Shown: positions 26,585 to 39,301 of the stretch, in pieces | Layout: each line of letters starts with the position of its first letter | Numbering within the stretch: the stretch's first letter is position 1 | Source: Propionicimonas sp. | GTDB taxonomy: Bacteria > Actinomycetota > Actinomycetes > Propionibacteriales > Propionibacteriaceae | Assembly: GCA_030158185.1 (NCBI GenBank) | Contig: JAOATP010000184.1 | Location: forward strand, 1-40,181 | DNA length: 40,181 nucleotides | Direction of reading: 5' to 3' | Made by a program: the position numbers and the translations under genes | Notes under the pieces: model-generated | Told to the model about the DNA's origin: nothing | Seen by the model: only the letters and a program-made list of their open reading frames with translations | Databases searched by the model: none

Positions 26585-26613
26585 TTCATTTCGAACACCT
26601 GTTCGCCTAGGCT
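26585..26613 (+). promoter_or_regulatory. LexA-controlled recA promoter: TTCATT-N17-TAGGCT with LexA box TCGAACACCTGTTCGC (26591-26606) in the spacer
   Basis: GAAC-N4-GTTC palindrome fills the -35/-10 spacer. Confidence 0.85.
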
Positions 26614-26693: not shown

Positions 26694-26737
26694 GTTGGTG
26701 ACGGGTAGGTAAATCCAGGATGGGAAGGACGCAGCTG

Positions 26738-37310: not shown

Positions 37311-38069
37311 CTAGACCCGACGCAGGACCGCGACGACCTTGCCGAGGATGGAGGCGTCGTTGCCGTCGATCGGCTCGTAGGCAGGGTTGTGCGGCAGCAG
37401 CCACACCTGGCCCGGCGTGCGCTTGAACGTCTTGACGGTCGCCTCTTCCCCGATGAGGGCTGCGACGATGTCGCCGTTGGTCGCGTCGGGCTGCTGTCGC
37501 ACAACGACGTAGTCGCCATCGCAGATCGCTGCCTCGATCATCGAGTCGCCCTTCACCTCCAGCAGGAAGAGGGTGCCCTCGCCGACGAGCTGGCGGGGGA
37601 GGGCGAAGACGTCCTCGACGGCCTGCTCGGCGAGGATCGGGCCGCCGGCAGCGATGCGACCGAGGACCGGCACGCTCACCGACGGCGCGTGCTGCGGCAC
37701 GTCGGGGTCGAAGGTCGCGATCTCTTCCGGGGCCGACATCGACTCGGGGAGCCGAACCTCCAGCGCCCGCGGACGGTGCGGGTCACGGAAGAGGAAGCCC
37801 TTGGCCTGCAGCACCTTCAGCTGGTGCGCAGCAGAGGAGGAGGAGGCCAGCCCCACGCGGTCGGCGATCTCGCGGATGCTCGGCGGGTAGCCACGGTCGA
37901 CGAGGGCATCACGGATGACCTCGAGGATGCGGCGTTGCCTCGCGGTGAGCCCCTCGGCGTCGGCGGGCCCGTCGGGCATCTGGCTGACCTTGGTGCCCAG
38001 CTGGGCTGCGATGTCCTCCTTGCGCGGGCGACCGCGCTTGCGGCTTACGGGTTCTGGCTTGCTTGGCAT
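37311..38069 (-). CDS. lexA: LexA repressor
   Basis: [74 protein letters not shown]. Confidence 0.98.
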
Positions 38070-38076
38070 GTACAGC

Positions 38077-38117
38077 AAGTTAGCCCCGGCGGAGGCCGGA
38101 ATCAAACACATGTTCGA
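38077..38117 (-). promoter_or_regulatory. lexA promoter TTGATT-N17-TAACTT with LexA box TCAAACACATGTTCGA (38102-38117)
   Basis: Box overlaps the -35; the -10 ends 7 nt before the lexA ATG, suggesting a leaderless transcript. Confidence 0.8.
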
Positions 38118-38185
38118 CGTGTCGCACACTTCACCGACCTTCTGTCAGTGGCGGCTGTTTGGATGATGCATGGCCCGACACGCGG

Positions 38186-38201
38186 GCGAACAAATGTTCG
38201 A
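38186..38201. promoter_or_regulatory. LexA box GCGAACAAATGTTCGA
   Basis: GAAC-N4-GTTC palindrome upstream of the -35 of the small SOS gene. Confidence 0.8.
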
Positions 38202-38208
38202 ATCATCC

Positions 38209-38258
38209 TTGATCCGGACGGCGTTCTGGGGTAGAACAGGTATCGAACACCTGTTCGG
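38209..38258 (+). promoter_or_regulatory. promoter TTGATC-N17-TAGAAC followed by LexA box TCGAACACCTGTTCGG (38243-38258)
   Basis: Near-consensus hexamers; box covers the expected start site. Confidence 0.85.
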
Positions 38259-38275
38259 TAACGAAGGAGATGGGT

Positions 38276-38617
38276 ATGAGCGCTCTGCTGGTAGACGACA
38301 TGATGCTGGTAGACGACATGATCGTCCGGCTGCCGACGCGGACGGCGGCCACGGGCTGGCGGCACGTCGACCAGGTCGAGCCCGCCACGCGGCCGATGCC
38401 GTACCTCGTCACCGAGGCTGCGCCGGTCAGCGTCCGTGCGTCCCGTCAGGCCGCACCCCTGCGACTCACCGACCGGGGGATCGCCGTCATCGTCGTGTTC
38501 TTCCTCGCCCTGATGGCCACGGCCGCCGTCGTGCTGGTCACGAGCTTCCTCAGCATCAGCAACGACCCGATCGCTGCGCCCGGCACCCAGCCGGTCCTGG
38601 TGACAATGCAGGGGTGA
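38276..38617 (+). CDS. putative SOS-induced small single-pass membrane protein (positional counterpart of DivS/ChiZ, no visible LysM)
   Basis: RBS GAAGGAG; LTDRGIAVIVVFFLALMATAAVVLVTSFL TM helix; LexA box upstream; lies between lexA and nrdR. Confidence 0.8.
   Translation: MSALLVDDMMLVDDMIVRLPTRTAATGWRHVDQVEPATRPMPYLVTEAAPVSVRASRQAAPLRLTDRGIAVIVVFFLALMATAAVVLVTSFLSISNDPIAAPGTQPVLVTMQG
38287..38322 (+). repeat. exact tandem duplication of 18-bp unit GCTGGTAGACGACATGAT within the small SOS gene
   Basis: Two identical adjacent copies encoding LLVDDM-MLVDDM. Confidence 0.95.
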
Positions 38618-38627
38618 AGGCGGTGCC

Positions 38628-38665
38628 GCACGCCGGCTGGTCGGGCAATCGACCAGCCGGCGTGC
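38628..38665 (+). terminator. strong hairpin GCACGCCGGCTGGTCG-GGCAAT-CGACCAGCCGGCGTGC
   Basis: Perfect 16-bp stem, 6-nt loop, 11 nt after the small-gene stop; no U-tract. Confidence 0.85.
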
Positions 38666-38730
38666 GCAATTCGACTCCTCCGGCGACACGCCACGCGCGT
38701 GGCCTTGCGAGTCGCCCGCAGGGTGCGTAA

Positions 38731-38778
38731 CCTCTACATGTAGTAGTTACAGCGTTGTCGTTCATCCACAGATAGTGT
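38731..38778 (+). promoter_or_regulatory. two candidate NrdR boxes upstream of nrdR-nrdJ (38731-38746 and 38763-38778)
   Basis: CCTCTACATGTAGTAG and CATCCACAGATAGTGT resemble acaCwAtATaTwGtgt; centres 32 bp apart. Confidence 0.6.
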
Positions 38779-38842: not shown

Positions 38843-39301
38843 GTGCACTGCCCGTTCTGCCGTCACACCGACACCAGAGTCCTGGACAGCCGCGTAGCCG
38901 AGGATGGCACCAGCATCCGGCGGCGCCGGCAATGCCCGCTGTGCGAGCGCCGGTTCACCACCCTCGAGCAGATGCAGCTGGTCGTCGTGAAGCGATCCGG
39001 CGTTGTCGAGCCCTTCTCCCGCGAGAAGGTCGTCACCGGTGTCGCGAAGGCCTGCAAGGGCCGTCCGGTGTCCGAGGCGGACCTCGCCCGGCTCGGCCAG
39101 CGGGTCGAGGAGACCCTGCGTGCCAGCGGCCAGTCGGAGATCCCGGCCGACGAGGTGGGCCTTGCGATCCTCGGGCCGCTCAGCGAGCTGGACCCGGTCG
39201 CCTACCTGCGTTTCGCCTCCGTCTACAAGCATTACGACTCGGTCGAAGACTTCGAAGCCGAGATCGACCAGCTGCGTCGTGTCGCGCTGGTCACGAACTG
39301 A
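38843..39301 (+). CDS. nrdR: transcriptional repressor NrdR
   Basis: [43 protein letters not shown]. Confidence 0.98.

Follow-up and report, generated by a model that had tools for sequence, protein, structure and literature searches.

Results

Organization of the lexA-nrdR Locus

The window, i.e., the whole 40,181-nucleotide stretch of Propionicimonas DNA analysed here, contains in order lexA on the reverse strand, three LexA boxes, a 113-codon open reading frame (ORF) on the forward strand, a 17-bp inverted repeat, and nrdR. The divergent neighbour lexA (37311-38087, reverse strand) matched TIGR00498 (3.4e-70) as well as PF01726 and PF00717, the conserved LexA protein start probably lying a few codons inside the annotated frame, and nrdR (38843-39301, forward strand) matched TIGR00244 (3e-48). 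These matches confirmed that the ORF occupies the lexA-nrdR slot in which, as stated in a first-pass annotation of this DNA, other actinobacteria encode SOS division suppressors. The ORF, referred to below as the slot gene (38276-38617, forward strand), encodes a LysM-less, ChiZ-type protein of 113 aa with the motif LTDRG at aa 64-68, a single transmembrane (TM) helix at about aa 66-95 and a short outer tail at aa 96-113. We placed its start at ATG 38276, 6 nt after the Shine-Dalgarno sequence GAAGGAG (38263-38269), rather than at ATG 38270, because the latter leaves no spacing to this sequence and because the relatives begin with MSA; the ORF length and the good ribosome-binding site described in the first-pass annotation were thus recovered.

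The inverted repeat downstream of the slot gene (38627-38666, forward strand) is perfect, with arms at 38627-38643 and 38650-38666 and a 6-nt loop, and is probably a terminator lacking a T-run. The terminator stem announced earlier is therefore present, its length being 17 bp instead of 16. An imperfect palindrome, GTAACCTCTACATGTAGTAGTTAC, at 38727-38750 upstream of nrdR is possibly an NrdR box or a piece of the nrdR promoter.

LexA boxes were compared with the reference pattern TCGAAC-N4-GTTCGA. Box 1 (TCAAACACATGTTCGA, 38102-38117, one mismatch), absent from the first-pass annotation, adjoins lexA and is kept beside it in relatives; this putative operator belongs to lexA, for autoregulation. 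Box 2 (GCGAACAAATGTTCGA, 38186-38201) lies upstream of the slot-gene promoter and box 3 (TCGAACACCTGTTCGG, 38243-38258) over the likely transcription start, each with one mismatch and conserved in relatives. Between them, the putative promoter TTGATC-N17-TAGAAC (38209-38237, forward strand; TTGATC at 38209-38214 and TAGAAC at 38232-38237) was read directly, and its TTG and TAGA elements are also conserved in relatives. The bracketing of this promoter by two LexA boxes, and the LexA control predicted from them, had been proposed before and agree with our results, although the promoter was not flagged by a sigma-70 consensus scan.

The same box sequence precedes recA (TCGAACACCTGTTCGC, 26591-26606, the RecA ORF starting near 26720) and, in another part of the genome, an ImuA-like gene, both genes having been recognised by eye (RecA from its N-terminal sequence), which makes the box credible as an operator of this genome. 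Allowing at most one mismatch, the pattern occurred at 36 sites in the 2.84-Mb genome, against 13 for a backwards-read control pattern, and three of these 36 sites fall within 157 bp at the lexA-slot intergenic region. Two putative operators flank the slot promoter in most relatives. Their spacing across the genus is mostly 53-57 or 41-43 bp. TAGA-type -10 elements immediately precede the second box, and where the spacing is long, the first box is followed by a TTG element. This box-promoter-box layout, from which several relatives depart (L082, L095, L097, L104, and L146), fits a double-operator clamp by predicted LexA binding.

Features and Conservation of the Slot Protein

AlphaFold2 predicted one helix in the slot protein, at residues 66-95, with block means of 97-98 pLDDT over residues 71-90 and low confidence throughout the rest of the chain. 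ChiZ-type proteins combine a disordered N-terminus with one downstream TM helix, as the model of the slot protein does, and the single helix together with an outer C-tail devoid of K/R fits, by the charge rule, an N-in/C-out topology as in ChiZ. Neither LysM nor any other domain was detected in Pfam and NCBIfam searches, the sole NCBIfam line (CrgA, E 0.16) being far below the cut-off, and a PDB sequence search returned no match. The single helix, the lack of LysM, and the short extracytoplasmic tail were all as first described.

The slot ORF is a real gene under purifying selection, since dN/dS ranged from 0.20 to 0.50 over eight close pairs. Slot relatives were present at the same position in most genomes of the genus, and a genome-collection search with the core alignment of the slot family, rather than a full-length family alignment, gave named matches in Propionicimonas, Micropruina, and unclassified Propionibacteriaceae. 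Among 25 aligned slot proteins, M1, R67, G68, and F91 were invariant and P50, L64, T65, A70, and V71 nearly so, the linker being highly variable.

The N-terminal codons contain an exact 18-bp tandem duplication on the forward strand (38286-38321, with identical copies at 38286-38303 and 38304-38321). It is missing from the nearest relative, L087, whose protein starts with MSALLVDDLIV, and from the other relatives in the 25-protein alignment; across the genus, MSA-x-LVDD is well conserved in its single-copy form. The tandem-repeat N-terminus of the first-pass annotation thus exists in this sequence but not in the aligned relatives. We rejected a functional repeat on these grounds, and may only guess that the conserved segment is a docking motif.

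Five loci of the genus (L063, L078, L084, L089, and L094) carry a single-TM slot ORF mostly without LTxRG (L094 has FSDRG), several of them with a W-containing tail; these variants have perhaps an altered partner interface.

The Slot Across Actinomycetes

We read the slot contents across the family and the class starting from nrdR loci. Synteny of the slot with divergent lexA and nrdR, a check proposed in the first-pass annotation, held across the genus, the family, and the class. In the commonest type of slot protein in Actinomycetes, the N-terminus is cytoplasmic and is followed by the juxtamembrane motif L-T-x-R-G, a single TM, and LysM. Outside Propionibacteriaceae, LysM slot proteins were found at 45 loci from 24 families, usually in the form (R)LTRRGR-TM-LysM, and five lexA-adjacent loci were without LysM. 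Within Propionibacteriaceae, LysM never exceeded 10 bits (0 of 73 loci) and the core profile matched above 15 bits at 45 of the 73; the other loci corresponded to divergent single-TM ORFs, ORFs missed automatically and visible by eye, separated lexA and nrdR, or contig ends.

In a LexA+NrdR tree built quickly from 110 loci under a simple model, Propionibacteriaceae formed one clade (SH-aLRT 98) that was sister to a LysM-bearing family (99), and the LysM state changed at least four times overall. This topology fits one LysM loss at the base of Propionibacteriaceae and separate losses elsewhere. LysM-less slots were also present at 9 of 20 chosen loci of the family holding Mycobacterium-type loci. 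The small-genome members of that family probably represent Corynebacterium and would then match the reported absence of LysM in DivS (PMC6851548). At L092, a locus of a LysM-bearing sister family, little of the slot protein follows the TM; LysM was apparently lost or truncated separately here.

Juxtamembrane/TM profiles of Propionibacteriaceae and of LysM slot proteins were aligned by hhalign with a score of 32.4 (E 4e-6), compared with 20.4 for reversed columns and a maximum of 22.1 in 60 shuffles of the pre-TM columns (0 of 60 as high). The homology covers about 33 columns, hydrophobic TM included, and we consider its strength only moderate because the aligned region is short. LTxRG was absent from mycobacterial-type slot proteins and from some divergent members of the genus of the window. 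The juxtamembrane/TM homology and the class-wide synteny place the slot protein in the ChiZ-type family, as a branch lacking LysM; we filed it as a LysM-less relative and not as ChiZ proper, since it gave no Pfam or NCBIfam match to LysM and none of the 73 family loci carried the domain. The same alignment score and synteny speak against the "new" inhibitor of the first-pass annotation, and we set aside its "SidA-like" character, the protein being syntenic and core-homologous with LysM-bearing slot proteins.

A LysM-bearing homologue encoded elsewhere and performing the role had been named as evidence against the first proposal. In the draft genome of the window (about 80% complete), the only Pfam LysM match was a 1044-codon frame holding two repeats, and the slot-LysM profile matched nothing, so that we dropped this candidate. 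The slot-LysM profile gave only weak matches, none inspected singly, in 21 of 99 family genomes.

Discussion

We think it likely that the slot gene is the Propionibacteriaceae form of the lexA-linked ChiZ/DivS-type SOS division inhibitor, from which LysM has been lost. The gene and the selection acting on it, the putative operators, the topology features, the synteny, the homology, and the LysM loss come from sequence comparison; from them and from characterised relatives we infer induction by damage, a division block, and a partner (FtsW/FtsQ/FtsI). In ChiZ, the disordered N-terminal region and the TM are reported to be sufficient for filamentation (PMC7355643), and ChiZ is reported to contact FtsQ and FtsI (PMC7355643, PMC3989709). 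Division inhibition is the best reading because this portion of ChiZ is reported to be enough, and the predicted topology together with the ChiZ and YneA literature is best read as pointing to a brake that acts on septal wall synthesis mainly through its TM.

LexA dimers on the two operators would clamp the promoter and keep the slot gene silent. Upon DNA damage, RecA would trigger LexA self-cleavage and the slot protein would be made, entering the membrane N-in/C-out. Through the TM helix and the juxtamembrane LTxRG segment it would then contact the complex that synthesises the septal wall (FtsW, or FtsQ/FtsI), stalling septation until LexA accumulates again.

The comparison with YneA complicates this picture. 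The YneA TM binds FtsW TM7, and YneA deprived of LysM still localises yet fails to stop division, LysM being needed to block synthesis; in the same study, ChiZ and SosA were placed on FtsW by low-confidence models (PMC13396833). The LysM-less form could therefore be inactive or act otherwise. DivS and SosA, however, function without LysM (PMC6851548). A tentative extension, which we consider rather doubtful, is that the TM and LTxRG, perhaps with the N-terminal "SALLVDDL" as a cytoplasmic docking site, are alone a complete septation inhibitor whose mechanism is unlike that of LysM-dependent YneA, wall binding having been dispensed with family-wide.

Members of the slot family (ChiZ, DivS) and inhibitors without LysM (DivS, SosA) are already known; our literature search, of incomplete coverage, found no paper on the Propionibacteriaceae form or on the class-wide pattern of LysM loss. 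The slot protein resembles ChiZ (Rv2719c) of Mycobacterium in its lexA-nrdR position, disordered cytoplasmic N-terminus, one TM, and N-in/C-out orientation. ChiZ differs by its LysM, removal of which still leaves filamentation (PMC7355643), by the lack of LTxRG in mycobacterial-type slot proteins and by low overall identity. DivS of Corynebacterium glutamicum, itself SOS-induced, is likewise lexA-linked with a single TM and no LysM (PMC6851548, PMC3989709), but its likely relatives (L235-L237, probably Corynebacterium), the syntenic loci compared here, lost LysM separately on the tree. The slot proteins of sister families (e.g., L101, L103, L114, L068, and L102) share the slot, the LTRRG-TM core, and several LexA boxes, and differ in ending with a LysM of about 55 aa. 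By description, SosA of Staphylococcus is also lexA-linked, with a single TM, no LysM, and an outer C-terminus (PMC6851548), but it needs a conserved outer segment whereas the outer tail of the slot protein is short and variable. SidA of Caulobacter, described as a small, SOS-induced single-TM inhibitor, belongs to another phylum and locus, and in the published model it sits against FtsW TM7 on the opposite face (PMC13396833). YneA consists of a TM and an essential LysM, which the slot protein lacks.

Alternatively, the slot gene could encode a membrane-perturbing peptide of the DinQ/TisB kind, made upon damage and lowering membrane energy or general growth rather than acting on the divisome. 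The single TM and the predicted LexA control would suit such a role, and DinQ of Escherichia coli is an SOS-regulated toxic single-TM peptide (PMC3567139). The conserved N-terminus and juxtamembrane motif, as well as the LysM-bearing relatives filling the same slot, nevertheless make this improbable. The DinQ/TisB toxins are moreover much shorter and under antisense RNA control.

We give similarly little credence to an SOS-induced membrane protein with another job, adjusting the envelope or the nucleotide supply in connection with nrdR and the downstream ribonucleotide reductase gene. The slot gene does adjoin nrdR, but the inverted repeat stands between them, nrdR lies kilobases away in other genera where the lexA-slot linkage is kept, and the characterised slot occupants are division inhibitors (PMC3989709). 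Still less probable is a decayed LysM-less relic that persists solely because lexA uses the same promoter region: the fairly high dN/dS against L087 (0.50), the very variable linker, and the near absence of a C-tail in some genera would agree with decay, but dN/dS is 0.20-0.36 in the other pairs, the frame is open in many genera of Propionibacteriaceae, R67, G68, and F91 do not vary, and the LexA operators are conserved.

Reading the slot gene as a LysM-less division inhibitor gives a likely role to a Propionibacteriaceae gene without any domain match. The published data on LysM conflict, YneA requiring it, ChiZ not, and DivS and SosA having none; family-wide loss beside a sister family that keeps LysM provides matched pairs for finding the part that stops septation.

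The lexA-nrdR slot family extends far past Mycobacterium and Corynebacterium. At L182, L180, and L196, lexA stands beside nrdR with no recognisable slot protein. In Streptomyces, none of the known SOS division inhibitors is reported to have a clear homologue (PMC9380542), with which the empty slot at L182 would agree if this locus is from Streptomyces. In one genus (g18; L136, L137, and L167), the product encoded at the lexA position shares only 25-27% identity with the LexA of the window, no standard-consensus LexA box was found, and the slot holds a different single-TM ORF with an LGRLGQVWQGN-type sequence; the SOS operator may have diverged there. Finally, several genera of Propionibacteriaceae (L085, L088, L095, L097, L131, L141, and L164) encode upstream of nrdR a small protein, resembling DUF2752, that has several TM segments and a motif of the type CP...TGW.CP.CG.(T/S)RM and lies between the slot gene and nrdR where both were seen.
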